This document shows positions 17,979 to 47,399 of a DNA stretch of 64,000 nucleotides, in pieces. The position numbers were made by a program, and so were the translations under genes. The DNA lies in NCBI RefSeq assembly GCF_014171595.1, contig NZ_CP050451.1, positions 992,001-1,056,000 of the forward strand, read 5' to 3'. Source of the stretch: Massilia sp. Se16.2.3 (GTDB lineage: Bacteria > Pseudomonadota > Gammaproteobacteria > Burkholderiales > Burkholderiaceae_D). The notes beneath the pieces were generated by a model. It made no database searches and was not told where the DNA came from. It was given only the letters and a program-made list of their open reading frames with translations. The first letter of the stretch is position 1; every line of letters starts with the position of its first letter.

Positions 17979-19930
17979 GCAGCCAGGTTCTCGATCTCCA
18001 GCGCAGGCAGGCCGGGTGGCAGGGCAATGCCGAACACGCGCAGGTAGAAGGCCAGTTCCGCTTCCAGGGTGCGCACGACGCTATCAAGCTTGCGAAAGCC
18101 GTGGCCTTCGCCTTCGAGCGTGATGTACGCCACCGGCACGCCGCGTGCGCGCAGGGCGTCGACCATCGTTTCCGACTGCTGCGGCGGCACCACCTTGTCG
18201 TCCAGGCCCTGGAAGAAGATCATCGGACGGTTGAGGGCATCGGTATGGTGGATCGGCGAACGCGCGCGGTAGATCGCATCGGCCTGGGCTTTCGGCGCAA
18301 TCAGGTATTCGTTGTAGTGCGACTCGAATTTGTGGGAGTCGGCATCCAGCCCGGCCAGGTCCGACACACCGTAATAGCTGGCGCCGGCCTTGAAGACGTC
18401 GTGGAAGGTGAGGGCCGACAGGGTCGTGAGTCCGCCGGCGCTGCTGCCGCGGATCAGCAGGCGCTCGGGGTCGACCAGGCCTTGCTGCGCCAGGTGGCGC
18501 GCGCCGGCCACGCAGTCCTCCACGTCGATCACGCCCCACTGGCCCTTCAGCAGGTCACGGTAGGCGCGCCCGAAACCGGTGCTGCCGCCGTAGTTTACGT
18601 CGAGCACGGCGAAGCCGCGGCTGGTCCAGAACTGGGTGGCCAGCTTCAGGGTGCTGGTGGCCATGCCGGTGGGGCCGCCGTGGCCGATGACGATCAATGG
18701 CGGCAGTTCGCCGTCCACCGCCTGGAAATCGGCATTCGCCGGCGGATAATAGAAAGCATAGGCGCTGCGGCCCTTCGCGCTCGGGTAGCGGATGCTGTGC
18801 GGGACCGACAGGTAGCCCGGCTCCGGCAGCTCCGCGATCGAGCGCGCCAGCACGGTACGCGCACCGGTAATCGGGTCGATCAGGGCGATTTCGACGGGAA
18901 GCGTCGGCGAGCCGGCCAGCACTGCCACCGCGGTGGGAGACACGCGCAGTTCGCGGATTTCCTCGTAGGGGGTGTCGATGGGCGTGAGGCTGCAGTCACG
19001 CGTGGACAGGCGTGCCAGGCGGCTGACGCCGTCCTCGATATAGGTGCAGACGATCTCGTCTTCCGAGCGGAAGCCGTACATCGAATTGCCGAAGCTCCAG
19101 TGCGGCCCGCCGAATTCGGCCTCGCGCGAACACAGCGGGTGCACCACGCCCCCTTCGAAGCGGTACAGGTTCCACCAGCCGCTGCGGTCGGAAACGAAGT
19201 AGAGCAGGCCGTCGGGCGACCACTCGGGCTGGCAGATCGATTCTTCCAGGCCGCCCGCGATCAGGCGGCCGTTGACCAGGCTGCCGTCGTCGGCGAAATC
19301 GGCCACCCAGAGTTCGGTGCCCTGCCAGGGCATGCGCGGGTGGTCCCAGCACAGCCAGGCCAGCTGGCGGCCATCGGGAGACAGGCGCGGCGCCGCATAG
19401 AAATCGTTGCCCTCGACGAGGATGGTCTCGGCGCCATCGAAGCCGACCGCGCAAATCGTATTGACGGGATAAGCCTCGCCGGCCAGGTGGTCTTCGCGTA
19501 CCGCCACCAGGCGGTGTCGAGCCCGGTCGGGCACGAAGTCGGCGTAGCGCACCTGCTCCTCGCGCGTGAGCATGACGGGTGTGCCGTCGCCCTCGACCGC
19601 ATATAGATGGTTGTCGGCAAAGTGCGAGAACCAGACCGTGCCGCCATCGGCCGCATAGGCGCCGCCGCCGTACTCGTGCACGCGGCTGCGCACGTTGAAG
19701 GGCGCCGGCGTCGGTTCGCCAACGGCGCTGGTGGCGGCAGCAGCATTGATGCGCAGGCGCTGCAGCGTGGTGCGGCCCGCTTCGCTGGCGCGTCCTGCCA
19801 GCCATAACACGTGCTCCCCGTCGAGCGCGATCTGCGACAGCGGAATGGCACCGGCCGCGACGACGGCGGCGCTGATCGGGGAAGTCCAGGTGCCGCAGGG
19901 GGCGGCCTGCTTGCTTGTCGGCTCGGTCAT
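17975..19930 (-). CDS. S9 family serine peptidase (prolyl-oligopeptidase type)
   Basis: 651 residues from MTEPTSKQAA; further upstream in-frame codons are non-coding in character. The N-terminal half is a beta-propeller-like region (repeated LSPDGRQLAW, WSPDGLLYFVSDRSG). The C-terminal alpha/beta-hydrolase domain has IGHGGPTGMATS, the nucleophile motif RGSSAGG (Ser near 495), an Asp in GLDDKVVPPQQSE, and the catalytic His in EGEGHGF. No signal peptide, so cytoplasmic cleavage of short peptides is likely. The stop codon overlaps the helicase start by four bases, making a two-gene operon with the SNF2 protein. Confidence 0.9.
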   Translation of the reverse strand: MTEPTSKQAAPCGTWTSPISAAVVAAGAIPLSQIALDGEHVLWLAGRASEAGRTTLQRLRINAAAATSAVGEPTPAPFNVRSRVHEYGGGAYAADGGTVWFSHFADNHLYAVEGDGTPVMLTREEQVRYADFVPDRARHRLVAVREDHLAGEAYPVNTICAVGFDGAETILVEGNDFYAAPRLSPDGRQLAWLCWDHPRMPWQGTELWVADFADDGSLVNGRLIAGGLEESICQPEWSPDGLLYFVSDRSGWWNLYRFEGGVVHPLCSREAEFGGPHWSFGNSMYGFRSEDEIVCTYIEDGVSRLARLSTRDCSLTPIDTPYEEIRELRVSPTAVAVLAGSPTLPVEIALIDPITGARTVLARSIAELPEPGYLSVPHSIRYPSAKGRSAYAFYYPPANADFQAVDGELPPLIVIGHGGPTGMATSTLKLATQFWTSRGFAVLDVNYGGSTGFGRAYRDLLKGQWGVIDVEDCVAGARHLAQQGLVDPERLLIRGSSAGGLTTLSALTFHDVFKAGASYYGVSDLAGLDADSHKFESHYNEYLIAPKAQADAIYRARSPIHHTDALNRPMIFFQGLDDKVVPPQQSETMVDALRARGVPVAYITLEGEGHGFRKLDSVVRTLEAELAFYLRVFGIALPPGLPALEIENLAA

Positions 19931-20000
19931 GGCGCGGGATTCGAAAATAGGGAGAACCACATTATAAGAGCGCAGGGTAGGGAGGGCGACGCGCCACGTG

Positions 20001-20101
20001 GAGCGTGTGAAAGAATGGTCAGGACAAGGCGCATCGTCGAAGACAGTACAAAGGTACGGCGAGACCATGCAACGCCGTCATGGCCATTTTTTCACACGCT
20101 C
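20001..20101. repeat. Palindromic intergenic repeat, family 2, copy B
   Basis: Terminal inverted repeat of 21 bases (20001-20021 / 20081-20101) with two mismatches, both of which would be G-U pairs in RNA. Core boxes CAAGGCGCA (20025), GAAGACAGTAC (20039), GTACGGCGAG (20054) and TGCAACGC (20068) are at the same spacing as in copy A. The arms (GCGTGTGAAA-type) are unrelated to the arms of copies A, C and D. It lies between the divergent S9 peptidase and hemE genes, 80 bases before the hemE start. Confidence 0.8.
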
Positions 20102-20180
20102 GTGCGCTGCGTCCGCGGGGCTCCCGCCATGCGCGGAGAATGCGATAATAGCCGTCCTCCGACGCCACCCATTGTCAGCC

Positions 20181-21266
20181 ATGCCACAATTTGCCCCGCT
20201 CAAGAACGATACTTTCCTGCGCGCGCTGCTGCGCCAGCCGACCGACTACACCCCGGTGTGGCTGATGCGGCAGGCCGGGCGCTACCTGCCGGAATACCGC
20301 GCCACGCGCGCGCGCGCCGGTTCGTTCCTGGGCCTGGCGAAGAACCCGGACTATGCGACCGAGGTGACCCTGCAGCCGCTCGACCGCTATCCGCTGGACG
20401 CGTCGATCCTGTTCTCGGACATCCTGACCGTGCCCGATGCAATGGGTCTCGGCTTGTATTTCGCCGACGGCGAAGGACCGAAGTTCGAGCGTCCGCTGCG
20501 CAGCGAAGCCGAGGTCATGGCGCTGCAGGTACCGGATATGGCGTCGCTCGACTATGTCTTCAAGGCCGTCACGCAGATCCGCACCGAGATCAACGGCCGC
20601 GTGCCCCTGATCGGCTTTTCCGGCAGCCCGTGGACGCTGGCCTGCTACATGGTCGAGGGGCAGGGCTCGCGCGAATTCCACACGATCAAGAAGATGCTGT
20701 ACGCGCGTCCGGACCTGATGCACCGCATCCTCGACATCAATGCCACGGCGGTCACGCAGTACCTGAACGCGCAGATCGACGCCGGCGCCCAGGCTGTCAT
20801 GATTTTCGACTCCTGGGGCGGTGCCCTGGCCGATGGCGCCTACCAGGAATTCTCGCTGCGCTACATGGAGAAAGTCGTCAGCGGGCTGCAGCGCGAGAAG
20901 GATGGCGTGCGCATTCCGGCGATCGTCTTCACCAAGGGCGGCGGCATCTGGCTGGACGAGATGGCGAACATCGGCGCCGACGCGCTGGGCCTGGACTGGA
21001 CCGTCAACCTGGGCCATGCGCGTGCGCTGGTGGGCGACCGCGTCGCGCTGCAGGGCAATCTCGACCCGGCCATCCTGTTCGCTTCCCCCGAGCAGATTCG
21101 TGCGGAGGTGGAACGTTCGCTCACGGCCTACGGGACGCCTGCCGCCGGGGCCGGCCATGTCTTCAACCTGGGACACGGCATTTCACAATTTACGCCGCCC
21201 GAATCGGTCAGCGCCATGGTGGAAGCAGTGCACAACTTCAGCCGCGCGCAACGTACCACTCGCTAG
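20181..21266 (+). CDS. hemE: Uroporphyrinogen decarboxylase
   Basis: 361 residues from [10 protein letters not shown]; longer in-frame starts would read through repeat copy B. It removes the four acetate carboxyls of uroporphyrinogen III to give coproporphyrinogen III in cytoplasmic haem synthesis. Family signatures are present: [14 protein letters not shown] near residue 25 (substrate-binding Arg), [13 protein letters not shown] with the catalytic Asp, [13 protein letters not shown], and IFDSWGGAL. The ending [11 protein letters not shown] is also typical. The gene is separated from priA by an unusual AT-rich 565-base region. Confidence 0.97.
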
Positions 21267-21831
21267 CCGGGCCGGTTTGCGGGGGCGATGTCTTTATGAC
21301 ACCACACATCGCTTCGCAGCGCAGCAAAATCACACTTGTTCACAAGTTTTAAAAATGCAGGCTTTGAACCTGTGGACATGTCAGGCGCAACCTTGATTAT
21401 TCTAAGTGGTTGAAATTGCTGGGTTTTATGCTTCAGTTCGCTGAAGAATGCGCTTCCGGAAGCAGATTTTTCGTAACAGAAATCATAGCTGTGCCAGCCT
21501 TGTTCACAAAGTTATCAACAGCATGCGCCACTCATCAATAAAAAGTGCTGCGTTTACGGGCACTTACGCTATGCAGTGCAGATACTTGTTTAATTGGACA
21601 TGCGTTTCGCGCATTTACTAGAAGAAAAATCGAAGTTATACACAATCGTTGCGTCAGAGGAAGTAGGTTGCTGTGGACTACTTTAGTTCTTGTAAGTGTT
21701 TGAAATTAAAGCGCTAATTGCGACATGAGTTTCGCTGATGCCGCCAAGGTTTGACTTAACGTAAACTTCTCCACTGGTCAAGTACAGCGCTTTCCACAAA
21801 GTTTTCCACAGGCTCTTTAGCAAGGTCGACA
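21267..21831. other. Candidate replication origin: AT-rich hemE-priA gap with DnaA-box cluster
   Basis: No gene in 565 bases. 9-mers matching or nearly matching the DnaA box: TTGTTCACA (21336 and 21500), TTATCAACA (21512), TTATACACA (21636, perfect), CTTTCCACA (21790), TTTTCCACA (21802, fits TTWTNCACA). Two TGTGGAC motifs on the other strand (21371, 21672) are weaker. A direct repeat TAAGTGKTTGAAATT occurs at 21403 and 21693, hairpins at 21431-21446 (TTCG loop) and 21600-21614, and a palindrome GCTTCCGGAAGC at 21452. In 21541-21600 I count 26 G/C of 60, well below coding DNA here. Genes to the left run leftward, those to the right mostly rightward. Alternatively it is a DnaA-responsive priA promoter. 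Confidence 0.55.
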
Positions 21832-23841
21832 TTGGCGTACTGCATTTTACAAATCGCGATCGATACGCCGCTCAACAGCGTGTTCGATTACGGCTGGCCT
21901 TATGAAGGCGCAGCGCCGCAGGTCGGCCAGCTGGTCCTGGTCAGTTTCGGACGCCGCGAAATCGTCGGCCTGATCGTTGCCATCGCCACCGAAAGCACGG
22001 TCCCGCCCGACAAGCTGAAGAACGCGATCGCCGTGCGCGACCAGTTGTCTCCCTTGTCCAGCCGATGGATCGCCCTTGCCGCTTTCGCCGCCGATTACTA
22101 CCAGCGTCCGCTCGGCGAAGTGGCGCTGCCGGGGCTGCCGAAAAACCTGCGCGTGCCGACAACCGTCGCGCTCGACCGCGCGCTGAAAAAGCTTGCCAAG
22201 AGCGCAAACGCGGGCGACCCGGCCCCTTGCGGCATGCCGGCCTTGAATCGCGAGCAGCAGACGGCGGCCGATGCCATCGGCGGTGCCCGGGGTTTCACGC
22301 CGATCCTGCTGTACGGCGTTACCGGCAGCGGCAAGACCGAGGTGTATCTGCAGGCCTGCGCCCAGGTGCTGGCGCGCGACCCGCAAGCGCAGATCCTGAT
22401 CCTGGTCCCGGAGATCAACCTCACGCCTCAACTGGAAGGCAATATCCGCGCGCGCTTCCCGGGCCTGATGCTGGCGACCCTGCACAGCAGCCTGTCCGAA
22501 GGCGAACGCATGCTGCACTGGCTGGCGGCGCACCAGGGCCAGGCGCGCATCGTGCTCGGTACCCGGCTGGCGATCCTCGCGTCCCTGCCGCACCTGCAGC
22601 TGATCGTCATCGACGAGGAGCACGACCCGTCCTATAAACAGCAGGAGGGGCTGCGTTATTCGGCGCGCGACCTGGCCGTGTGGCGCGCGCGCCAGCTCGC
22701 CATTCCCATCGTGCTCGGTTCGGCCACGCCCTCGCTGGAAAGCTGGCACCATGCCCAGACGGGACGTTACGACCTTTTACCGCTGCGCGAACGCGCCGTG
22801 CGCGACGCCGTGCTGCCGAGCGTGCGCCTGATCGACATGGAGCGCGACAAGCCGAAGGAAGGCCTGACCGGCGGCCTGCTGGCGGCACTGAGGCAGCGCC
22901 TGGAGCGTGGCGAACAATCGCTGCTGTTCCTGAACCGGCGCGGCTATGCGCCGGTGATCACCTGCGAAGCCTGCGGCTGGATCAGCAACTGCACCCGCTG
23001 CACCTCGTTCATGGTGCTGCACAAGCCCGAACACCGGCTGCGCTGCCACCACTGCAGCCTGGAGCTGCGCATCCCGCGCCATTGCCCGACCTGCGGCAAC
23101 GTCGACCTGCAGCCGCTCGGGCGCGGCACCCAGCGCTTCGAAGAAAACCTGACCGCGATGTTTCCCGACGCGCGCATCCTGCGCATCGATGCCGACTCCA
23201 CCCGCAAGAAGGGCAGCGCCCAGGAAGCTTTCGATACCGTGCACCGCGGCGAGGTCGATATCCTGATCGGCACGCAGATGGTCGCCAAGGGGCACGACTT
23301 CAAGAAGCTGACCCTGGTCGGCATCCTCAATCCGGACACGGCCCTGTTCTCGCAGGACTACCGGGCCAGCGAACGCCTCTTCGCGCAGCTGATGCAGGTG
23401 GCGGGCCGCGCCGGCCGGGCCGGCCTGGCCTCCGAGGTCCTGATCCAGACCCGCTACGCGGCCCACCCGCTGTATTCGGCCGTGGTGCGCCACGACTACG
23501 AGCGCTTCGCCATGAACCTGCTGGAAGAGCGCCACCAGGCCGCGCTGCCGCCCTACATGTACCAGGCGCTGCTGCGTGCCGAGGCGCCGGAACTGGCCAC
23601 CGCCATCGCTTTTCTTGAAGAGGCGCGCGGCATCCTGCCCGTCGATCCCGAATCGATCACGCTGAACGACCCGATCCCGATGACGATGACGCGCGTGCAC
23701 AATGTCGACCGCGCCCAGTTGCTGGTGGAATCGAATTCGCGCCCGGCGCTGCAGGGCTACCTGAAGGAGTGGCTGCACCTGCTGCGGGCGATGAAGACGC
23801 GCGTGCGCTGGTCGCTCGAGGTTGATCCGCTGGACATCTGA
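21832..23841 (+). CDS. priA: Primosomal replication protein N' (PriA helicase)
   Basis: 669 residues; the start appears to be TTG (21832) with AAGG six bases upstream. PriA is a 3'-5' DNA helicase that reloads DnaB at stalled forks. Seen here: N-terminal DNA-binding domain (about 1-110), Walker A YGVTGSGKTEVY, DEEH box VIDEEHDPSYKQ, GSATPSLES, and a zinc region with eight cysteines (CEACGW, NCTRC, RCHHC, CPTCG) between the helicase lobes. Motifs V-VI appear as TQMVAKGHDF and QVAGRAGRAG. No catalytic residue is missing. It lies directly next to the candidate origin, so DnaA-linked expression is conceivable. Confidence 0.96.
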   Translation: MAYCILQIAIDTPLNSVFDYGWPYEGAAPQVGQLVLVSFGRREIVGLIVAIATESTVPPDKLKNAIAVRDQLSPLSSRWIALAAFAADYYQRPLGEVALPGLPKNLRVPTTVALDRALKKLAKSANAGDPAPCGMPALNREQQTAADAIGGARGFTPILLYGVTGSGKTEVYLQACAQVLARDPQAQILILVPEINLTPQLEGNIRARFPGLMLATLHSSLSEGERMLHWLAAHQGQARIVLGTRLAILASLPHLQLIVIDEEHDPSYKQQEGLRYSARDLAVWRARQLAIPIVLGSATPSLESWHHAQTGRYDLLPLRERAVRDAVLPSVRLIDMERDKPKEGLTGGLLAALRQRLERGEQSLLFLNRRGYAPVITCEACGWISNCTRCTSFMVLHKPEHRLRCHHCSLELRIPRHCPTCGNVDLQPLGRGTQRFEENLTAMFPDARILRIDADSTRKKGSAQEAFDTVHRGEVDILIGTQMVAKGHDFKKLTLVGILNPDTALFSQDYRASERLFAQLMQVAGRAGRAGLASEVLIQTRYAAHPLYSAVVRHDYERFAMNLLEERHQAALPPYMYQALLRAEAPELATAIAFLEEARGILPVDPESITLNDPIPMTMTRVHNVDRAQLLVESNSRPALQGYLKEWLHLLRAMKTRVRWSLEVDPLDI

Positions 23842-23925
23842 GCGCGCCCGCCCAGTCTCGGGCCACCGCTGTGAAACTGGCAAAATAGGCGTATCGTCAT
23901 GGCGGCACAGCAAACGGAGTACAAG

Positions 23926-25365
23926 ATGAAAAAACTACAGGTCGACGTGGCCGTCATCGGCACCGGCACCGCCGGCATGTCCGCCTACCGCGCCGCGCAC
24001 GCGCAAGGCGCGCGCACCGTCGTCATCGAGGGCGGCCCGTACGGCACCACCTGCGCCCGCGTCGGCTGCATGCCGAGCAAACTCCTGATCGCGGCGGCAG
24101 ACGCCGCCCATACCCTCGACGTGGCGCCGGGCTTCGGCGTGCATCCGGGCGAAAAACGCATCGACGGTCGCGCCGTGATGGAGCGGGTGCGGCGCGAACG
24201 CGACCGTTTTGTGGGCTTCGTGCTCGAGAGCGTCGAGAGTTTTCCGGAAAGCGACCGCATTCGCGGCCACGCCCGCTTTACAAGCCCGCATACGCTCCAG
24301 GTGGACGAGCACACCGAGATCGAGGCGGCCAGCTTCGTGATTGCCACCGGTTCGACGCCGGTCGTGCTGCCGCAGTTGCAGGACGTCGGCCCCGGCATCG
24401 TCACCAGCGACGACGTCTTTTATTGGGACGATCTGCCGCGTTCGGTGGCGGTGATCGGCACCGGCGTGATCGGCCTGGAACTGGGCCAGGCACTGACCCG
24501 CCTTGGCGTGCGCGTGCGCATCTTCGCGCGCGGCGGCAGCGTCGCCCACCTGAGCGATCCGGAAGTACTGCACGCGGCCACCCGCACTTTGACCCAGGAA
24601 CTCGATCTGCAATTCCAGACCGAAGTCGTGCGCGCCGAGCAGCAGGGAGAACAGGTGCTGCTCACCACGCGCGACGCGCTTGGCAAGGAAACAAGTGAAT
24701 CCTTCCAGTACGTACTGCTGGCAACCGGACGCAGCCCGAACGTCAAGGACCTGGGACTGGAAGAGACGGGACTGGCGCTGCAGGCAAATGGCGTGCCGGA
24801 ATTCGACAGCCGCACCATGCAGTGCGGGAGCAGCCACATCTTCATTGCTGGCGACGCCAACAACGAACTGCCCCTGCTGGCCGAAGCGGCCGACCACGGC
24901 AAGATCGCCGGAGAAAACGCCGGCCGCTATCCGGACGTGCGCCCCGGCCTGCGCCGCACCCCGCTGGCGATCGCCTTTACGGAACCGAACATCGCCACGC
25001 TCGGCAGGAGCTATAAAACGCTGTGCGAGGGCGGGCGGCCGAAGTTCGCCATCGGCCAGGTCTCGTTCGAGAACCAGGGCCGCAGCCGCGTCATGTTGCA
25101 AAACAAGGGGATGCTGCGCGTGTACGCCGAATACGGCAGCTGCCGTTTCCTCGGTGCCGAGATGATCGGCCCGCGCGGCGAGCACCTCGCCCACCTGCTG
25201 GCCTGGGCCGTGCAGGCGAACCTGACGGTCCCGCAGCTGCTCGACATGCCGTTTTATCATCCGGTGATCGAGGAAGGCGTGCGCACCGCGCTGCGCGACC
25301 TGGCCGCCAACCTGGCCAAGGGCGCGAACCACACCGACCCGGCCGATTCCGAGCCGGGAACCTGA
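23926..25365 (+). CDS. Dihydrolipoyl dehydrogenase-like flavoprotein disulfide reductase
   Basis: 479 residues from MKKLQVDVAV, chosen because CGGAG lies just upstream. FAD-binding GTGTAG at 12-17; redox-active disulfide in TTCARVGCMPSK (Cys43 and Cys48); NAD(P)-binding VIGTGVIGLELG in the centre; C-terminal dimer domain with the active-site HPVIEE (His445, Glu450). These are the hallmarks of class I pyridine-nucleotide-disulfide oxidoreductases, closest in layout to dihydrolipoamide dehydrogenases. It is not next to genes for 2-oxoacid dehydrogenase complexes, so it may be a stand-alone reductase rather than the complex E3; substrate uncertain. Followed by a paired palindromic repeat. Confidence 0.85.
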   Translation: MKKLQVDVAVIGTGTAGMSAYRAAHAQGARTVVIEGGPYGTTCARVGCMPSKLLIAAADAAHTLDVAPGFGVHPGEKRIDGRAVMERVRRERDRFVGFVLESVESFPESDRIRGHARFTSPHTLQVDEHTEIEAASFVIATGSTPVVLPQLQDVGPGIVTSDDVFYWDDLPRSVAVIGTGVIGLELGQALTRLGVRVRIFARGGSVAHLSDPEVLHAATRTLTQELDLQFQTEVVRAEQQGEQVLLTTRDALGKETSESFQYVLLATGRSPNVKDLGLEETGLALQANGVPEFDSRTMQCGSSHIFIAGDANNELPLLAEAADHGKIAGENAGRYPDVRPGLRRTPLAIAFTEPNIATLGRSYKTLCEGGRPKFAIGQVSFENQGRSRVMLQNKGMLRVYAEYGSCRFLGAEMIGPRGEHLAHLLAWAVQANLTVPQLLDMPFYHPVIEEGVRTALRDLAANLAKGANHTDPADSEPGT

Positions 25366-47210: not shown

Positions 47211-47287
47211 TGGCGGAGCGGACGGGGCTCGAACCCGCGACCCCCGGCGTGACAGGCCGGTATTCTAACCAACTGAACTACCGCTCC
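47211..47287 (-). tRNA. tRNA-Asp (GTC)
   Basis: Complete cloverleaf on the minus strand: acceptor GGAGCGG/CCGCTCC, D arm with TAGTTCAGTTGGTTAGA, anticodon loop CTGTCAC with anticodon GTC, T arm GGGTTCGAGCCCC-type, discriminator G and encoded CCA (47211-47213). It lies 35 bases from tRNA-Val on the same strand, and both end before a shared terminator. Confidence 0.97.
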
Positions 47288-47322
47288 GTTTTTACTGATC
47301 GGTTCCTCGTTGAAACGATATC

Positions 47323-47399
47323 TGGTGGGCGCTGAGAGGCTCGAACTCCCGACCTAATCCTTGTAAGGGATCCGCTCTACCAACTGAGCTAAGCGCCCC
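47323..47399 (-). tRNA. tRNA-Val (TAC)
   Basis: Complete cloverleaf on the minus strand: acceptor GGGGCGC with its 3' partner GCGCCC, D arm TTAGCTCAGTTGGTAGAG, anticodon stem GATCC/GGATT around loop CTTACAA with anticodon TAC, T arm with GGGAGTTCGAGCCTCTC, encoded CCA (47323-47325). First gene of a Val-Asp tRNA pair, an arrangement common in betaproteobacteria. Confidence 0.96.

Follow-up and report, generated by a model that had tools for sequence, protein, structure and literature searches.

The gap between hemE and priA in Massilia sp. Se16.2.3 is probably a conserved cis-acting DnaA/IHF control element of the DARS2 type, in a form that appears worn in this species, and not a replication origin. 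It belongs to the window, the whole stretch of 64,000 nucleotides that was analyzed, which corresponds to positions 992,001-1,056,000 of a genome assembled in one contig (5,351,291 bases). Two modules are present in the gap. In each of them a single DnaA box comes first, then an IHF-type site, and 97 bp after the start of this site a double box, whose two DnaA boxes are 12 bp apart (Table 1). The module of single and double boxes occurs in all 78 hemE-priA gaps compared, those of the window and of relatives among the best 80 of 587 PriA matches, with a total of 124 copies.

The gap measures 565 bp, from the hemE stop at 21266 to the priA start at 21832, and has a G+C content of 0.45 compared with 0.66-0.67 in the flanking 2-kb segments (19001-21000 and 22001-24000). 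Six DnaA boxes are found there, all on the + strand, two matching TTWTNCACA exactly and four with one mismatch; the shuffle mean of 32.3 boxes within one mismatch per 64 kb corresponds to about 0.3 in 565 bp. The preliminary description of this DNA had reported a DnaA-box cluster in an AT-rich gap without genes, including a perfect box at 21636 and another box at 21802, together with hairpins and a direct repeat. The cluster is borne out by these counts and both boxes are exact; the direct repeat is 27 nt long and present in three copies (21331, 21495 and 21785), and the hairpin is a palindrome with imperfections (21443-21472). That description mentioned neither the modular plan nor the IHF-type sites at 21403 and 21693. 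Only one cluster, at 806.2 kb, exceeds the box-cluster score of the gap in the 940 contiguous kb scanned, and two of the three 12-bp double boxes (pair total of at most two mismatches) detected in 940 kb of the genome are located in the gap. The window PriA is nearest to those of Massilia, Duganella and Janthinobacterium among the matches listed, from which its own species is possibly absent. The true hemE start is probably downstream of 19998. The genome encodes IHF-alpha, identified above its family cut-off.

Table 1. The hemE-priA gap and its flanking genes; coordinates are those of the window and distances refer to the start of the double box.
Feature	Coordinates	Strand	Basis
hemE (uroporphyrinogen decarboxylase), left flank	19998..21266	+	NCBIfam TIGR01464, 418.7 bits, cut-off 302.95
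Module 1, single DnaA box TTGTTCACA (one mismatch), 164 bp upstream of double box	21336..21344	+	box search
Module 1, IHF-type site TAAGTGGTTGAAA, one mismatch to YAANNNNTTGATW, at -97	21403..21415	+	sequence match
Module 1, double box, first box TTGTTCACA (one mismatch), position of DARS box III	21500..21508	+	box search
Module 1, double box, second box TTATCAACA (one mismatch), position of DARS box II	21512..21520	+	box search
Module 1, place of inverted box I; no box here, 5 mismatches	21526..21534	-	relatives' geometry
Module 2, single DnaA box TTATACACA (exact), 154 bp upstream of double box	21636..21644	+	box search
Module 2, IHF-type site TAAGTGTTTGAAA (one mismatch), at -97	21693..21705	+	sequence match
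Module 2, double box, first box CTTTCCACA (one mismatch)	21790..21798	+	box search
Module 2, double box, second box TTTTCCACA (exact)	21802..21810	+	box search
Module 2, place of inverted box I; no box here, 4 mismatches	21816..21824	-	relatives' geometry
priA (replication restart helicase), right flank, TTG start	21832..23841	+	NCBIfam NF004067, 959.7 bits, cut-off 763

The comparison set was obtained by fetching the best 80 of the 587 PriA relatives. A hemE gene was found upstream in 77 of them, the three others (L109, L112 and L127) being left out, and the window completes the set of 78 gaps. These include Massilia, Duganella, Janthinobacterium, Collimonas, Herminiimonas, Noviherbaspirillum and Undibacterium as well as Achromobacter, Bordetella, Alcaligenes, Cupriavidus, Ralstonia, Pandoraea, Paraburkholderia and others. 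The module was defined as a single box TTATNCACA, TTTTNCACA or TTGTNCACA followed by a double box with its two boxes 12 bp apart, an AAG or TAG spacer and a pair total of at most two mismatches. This definition and the mismatch limits were set post hoc from the same sequences, and the relatives constitute non-independent samples. The 124 modules were retained from 128 single-double pairs, after one pair with a 199-bp distance and three pairs whose spacer is GAA had been dropped. One copy is present in 33 loci, two in 44 and three in a single locus. The conservation of the boxes across related genomes, which the preliminary description had listed as a check, is thus observed.

The interior of the module is conserved as well. 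An IHF-type site YAANNNNTTGATW with at most one mismatch starts between -99 and -95 from the double box in 114 of the 124 modules, 76 of these matches being exact; when the module interiors were shuffled, the matches at these positions averaged 0.5 with a maximum of 3. The IHF and Fis consensus sequences were taken from the literature (PMC4245941), the first base of the former being relaxed to Y. The Fis consensus, which is that of E. coli, is neither enriched (19 exact matches versus 19.9 in shuffles) nor placed at a fixed offset. The spacing between single and double box is distributed in bands of 151-154 bp (33 modules), 160-167 bp (65), 170-179 bp (23) and 184-185 bp (3), the values 160, 170 and 179 being single outliers within their bands. 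These bands are about one helical turn apart and, as an informal indication drawn from related sequences, suggest a folded loop in which the rotational setting would matter. An inverted box with at most one mismatch, corresponding to box I, is located at +26 from the double-box start in 69 of 123 modules, any other offset being represented by at most 3. It occurs in at least one module of 47 of the 78 loci (window plus best 80 of 587 relatives) and is missing, at the same mismatch limit, from the remaining 31. Among the latter are the M. niastensis (L085) and M. timonae (L103) PriA loci, others named Bordetella, Achromobacter, Cupriavidus, Pandoraea and Paraburkholderia, and the window, both modules of which lack it. 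The spacings inside the module are kept across the 78 gaps and the distance between the last double box and priA varies from 9 to 513 bp.

DARS sites (DnaA-reactivating sequences) have been characterized in E. coli, and nine loci of strain K-12 served as controls: DARS1, DARS2, nrdA, polA, purH, oriC/mioC, nrdD, dnaA and datA. Of these, only DARS1 and DARS2 combine a 12-bp double box with an inverted box at +26 that has no more than one mismatch; nrdD does not contain any 12-bp double box. The relatives' modules that carry box I share with DARS2 the order, orientation and spacing of box III, 12 bp, box II, 14 bp and inverted box I, and DARS2 is likewise intergenic and away from oriC. Its IHF match has the same orientation and is also on the side of box III, at -87, the -97 of the hemE-priA modules being one helical turn further. 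A candidate IHF site on this side of the core also belongs to both window modules, with one mismatch each. The two IHF matches that we found in DARS2 are 3 bp apart, as are the reported IBS1 and IBS2 (PMC4245941). According to the same source, DARS2 retains moderate activity when its IHF sites are moved 10 bp towards the Fis sites, and partial activity when they are moved by 5 bp or towards the core. In the literature, boxes I, II and III are described as equally spaced in DARS1 and DARS2, box I facing the opposite way (PMC5742627), and boxes I and II as acting head to head in ADP release (PMC8682772). DARS1, located upstream of uvrB, displays the same 12/14 three-box core but differs in that the 400 bp scanned contain no IHF match with one mismatch or less. 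The correspondence between module and DARS2 is one of order, orientation, spacing and helical phase, not of overall sequence.

Several features set the module apart from DARS2. An in-phase single box precedes its double box by about 151-185 bp, and DARS2 has no counterpart in the same orientation at that distance. DARS2 resides near mutH, whereas the module is found between hemE and priA and is often duplicated. DARS2 needs Fis, and the hemE-priA modules carry no conserved Fis site according to the E. coli consensus. Finally, the three-box core present in DARS2 is lacking from the window's own two copies. The promoters of nrdA, polA and purH in E. coli resemble the module by two boxes 12 bp apart, with an AAG spacer at nrdA and polA, but differ by the absence of an inverted box at +26 (6 mismatches at each main double box).

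Copies of the IHF-double box part also exist outside hemE-priA. Two are present in the same genome, at 4,099,122-4,099,239 and 4,096,587-4,096,704, with 0 and 1 mismatches to the search pattern, respectively; the reversed-pattern control gave 0 matches. In both, the IHF site is located at -97 and an inverted box, one mismatch away from the consensus, at +26, which gives the three-box core. A single box precedes the former by 162 bp (L282, 4,099,001-4,099,400); for the latter, no single box within one mismatch was found in the 193 bp scanned upstream (L281, 4,096,501-4,096,800). Matching loci were recovered in G016 (L263), a genome of the same genus, beside an ORF for a UvrD-type helicase, and in G071 (L264), in a stretch without any match in a Pfam scan. 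A strict exact pattern of the IHF-double box part was also run on 399 genomes of this order: 24 contain it (0 in the reversed-pattern control), and 12 of these 24 places are flanked by both hemE and priA. The pattern missed the window genome and most others and is therefore no measure of module frequency.

The preliminary description had put forward the gap, at 1,013 kb of the genome, as a possible oriC, a proposal that several markers of this chromosome do not support. In this genome the plain GC skew, with a local minimum at 1,058.5 kb within 0.9-1.3 Mb, is not decisive because of its weakness and irregularity, and a walk based on heptamer strand asymmetry was used instead. Its 362 strand-biased heptamers were derived from 31 stretches of the chromosome, all of them outside 0.44-1.46 Mb; over 480-1,420 kb the walk is lowest at 818,841, some 195 kb away from the gap. 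Commonly used consensus sequences were taken for parS and dif, and a commonly used criterion for the DnaA-trio. Two perfect parS sites and one with a mismatch are grouped at 795.3 kb, the sole place in the genome within two mismatches, a limit at which the reversed-pattern control gave one chance match per strand. A dif-like site at 3,466,796 has its antipode, by arithmetic, at 791 kb. Asymmetry minimum, parS and dif thus point to 0.79-0.82 Mb. There, 11 kb from parS, an intergenic gap of about 1.5 kb harbors a cluster at 806,160-807,470 (L156:6160-7470) with three repeats, each composed of TTATCCACA, a TAC/TAT trio-like run and an AT-rich stretch; by eye, the run is unbroken in two repeats and broken in the third. 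This arrangement resembles the basal unwinding element of bacterial origins, and the cluster is the probable true origin. It shares with the hemE-priA gap a high density of DnaA boxes and an intergenic location but differs by these repeats and by the lack of a 12-bp double box within two mismatches over 806-807.5 kb. Conversely, a TAN-TAN-TAN run is absent from both strands of the hemE-priA gap. The gene dnaA, whose location together with dnaN the preliminary description had also listed as a check, is encoded at 1,128,041-1,129,432 (L014:8041-9432, minus strand) with the beta-clamp gene dnaN adjoining, about 320 kb from the proposed origin. An origin at dnaA was rejected as well, the cluster upstream being weak (score 5) and the gene itself situated about 310 kb from the asymmetry minimum.

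The hypothesis that the gap is oriC or a second active origin appears highly improbable to us, even though its dense boxes and AT-richness would fit and some relatives speak in its favor. The box-cluster score of hemE-priA surpasses that of the cluster near parS in G016 (16 versus 11), a genome of the same genus, and in G098 (10 versus 6), where the parS region contains no clear origin-type unit; G016 and G098 illustrate how box density alone can mislead origin prediction. In G016, the arithmetic dif antipode at about 2.075 Mb is nearer to priA (start at 2,051.4 kb) than to parS (1.844 Mb). Such matches to dif, parS and priA were all placed on contig C1 in 9 of 18 genomes searched, four of them with rounded sizes, and the antipode is nearer to parS in 8 and nearer to priA in G016 only; in G133 and G139 it is more than 300 kb from both sites. 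The KOPS polarity switch (consensus from PMC4948915) occurs between gap and origin-type cluster, at 882-948 kb in this genome, about 75-140 kb from the cluster on the priA side, where it fits neither site exactly, and at 1.952-1.958 Mb in G016, about 100 kb from the origin-type cluster and also on the priA side. Against an origin in the gap stand the asymmetry minimum, the stronger cluster at 806.2 kb and the missing TAN trio, as well as the skew of relatives. In G098, which has a strong GC skew, the minimum over 400 kb is at 1,321,955, only 0.7 kb from parS at 1,321,272, and the hemE-priA boxes at about 1,074.9 kb are on the middle of the slope, about 247 kb away; the GC-skew minimum, which according to the preliminary description should fall at the gap if this were oriC, is found at parS in this relative. 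In G016, with a weak skew, the minimum over 400 kb (1,857.9 kb) is next to an origin-type cluster that spans 1,853.6-1,855.5 kb and away from hemE-priA; the skew samples of G117 were too noisy to place its origin. In Alcaligenes faecalis AU14, parS-like matches with 1-2 mismatches (one per strand in the control) are located at 2.80-2.81 Mb and priA at about 1.967 Mb, so that hemE-priA, with its module kept, is about 0.84 Mb from what is assumed to be the origin there. On present evidence, the hemE-priA gap is probably not oriC and the origin is elsewhere.

An element of the datA kind is a more serious contender, which we nevertheless regard as unlikely. In such a site, IHF would fold DnaA bound to the single box against DnaA bound to the double box, and thereby promote ATP hydrolysis or soak up DnaA at a place doubling early, about 206 kb from the proposed origin. 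What all 78 loci have in common is precisely a set of boxes around an IHF-type site, box I being missing from 31 of them, the window included. Minimal datA is described as boxes 7, 2 and 3 plus one IHF site (PMC5742627), and in E. coli datA a 12-bp pair is accompanied by an IHF match and by a single box, the latter 162 bp away from the second box of the pair. However, in box direction the IHF site and the single box of datA follow the double box (+77 and +174), and those of the module precede it (-97 and about -165), as does the IHF site of DARS2: the order in the gap is single box, IHF-type site, double box, on the opposite side to datA, and the two geometries do not superpose. A datA-like function would also leave unaccounted for the box I located at exactly +26 in more than half of the modules. 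We find it very improbable that the gap is instead a transcriptional operator, at which bound DnaA would repress or time priA, or affect hemE, and so tie restart capacity to initiation. The second double box of the window does end 21 bp before the priA start, and E. coli DnaA is reported to prefer double boxes with 2-3 bp between, several of which are upstream of genes (PMC11317965). Yet the distance to priA varies widely while the internal spacings stay fixed, many loci carry two modules and one carries three, and the same module is found elsewhere in the genus, next to the UvrD-type helicase ORF of G016 and at 4.1 Mb of this genome. Nothing marks priA as the target, contrary to the control of priA that the preliminary description had envisaged. 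Its other alternative, a secondary DnaA titration or regulatory site, is supported, and the boxes are conserved in relatives. Its overall reading is thus partly supported, for the secondary DnaA site but not for oriC or for priA as target.

We therefore return to the DARS2-type control element. The sequences establish the sites with their conservation, spacing and phase, and place most origin signals elsewhere; from this, and by analogy with the E. coli sites, we infer binding of DnaA and IHF, assembly of DnaA across the bend and nucleotide exchange. IHF would bend the DNA between single box and double box and fold the DnaA oligomer together. In modules with box I, the ADP-DnaA molecules bound to boxes I and II would come head to head, drop their ADP, be released and take up ATP, as at E. 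coli DARS. The window copies are without the inverted box, and for them binding or titration of DnaA is the safer claim and the more likely activity compared with exchange. DARS-type activity could be carried by the box-I-bearing modules at 4.097 and 4.099 Mb. The window site would be replicated early, given its distance to the proposed origin. This reading as a DARS2-type element has to accommodate the loci without box I, the window among them, the absence of a Fis signal although E. coli DARS2 needs Fis, and the in-phase single box without DARS2 counterpart. A further point against it is that the 12/14 triad is not exclusive to control sites: the origin-type cluster of G027, which shows two box/trio-like/AT-rich units 11 kb from its parS (L249 17,670-18,330), contains a triad of DARS geometry (L249:17672-17706).

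In a broader perspective, it seems to us an even call whether the Burkholderiales possess their own family of IHF-folded DnaA-switching elements, placed between hemE and priA in one to three copies and at a second locus in this genus, built on the DARS2 plan and equipped with the nucleotide-exchange box in some lineages only. If true, chromosomal sites that control ATP- and ADP-DnaA would be ancient and modular, and would be widespread outside the group of E. coli and its relatives. The presence of a recognizable module at a syntenic place in many genera would make DnaA nucleotide switching testable outside enterics. In the open-licence literature searched, no description was found of a hemE-priA DnaA site or of a named betaproteobacterial DARS. 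The DARS2 core is reported to be conserved among gamma-proteobacteria related to E. coli (PMC4245941), and a later review speaks of beta- or gamma-proteobacteria and of datA-like box clusters in B. subtilis and Streptomyces (PMC5742627). Regarding origins in this group, the exact place of the chromosome-1 origin of Burkholderia cenocepacia is given as unclear and a second box cluster is pointed to (PMC4948915); in Cupriavidus metallidurans CH34, a skew transition is reported close to three perfect boxes, with dnaA about 90 kb away (PMC2864759).

Two minor observations can be added. In four genomes of one genus (L273-L276; f24, g126, 1.3 Mb), the strict IHF-double box pattern is located away from hemE-priA. 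The L273 stretch comprises ORFs that we take, from their translations, to be TatD-like and CTP-synthase-like. In the window itself, tRNA-Asp and tRNA-Val genes are arranged in tandem on the minus strand at 47211-47398.
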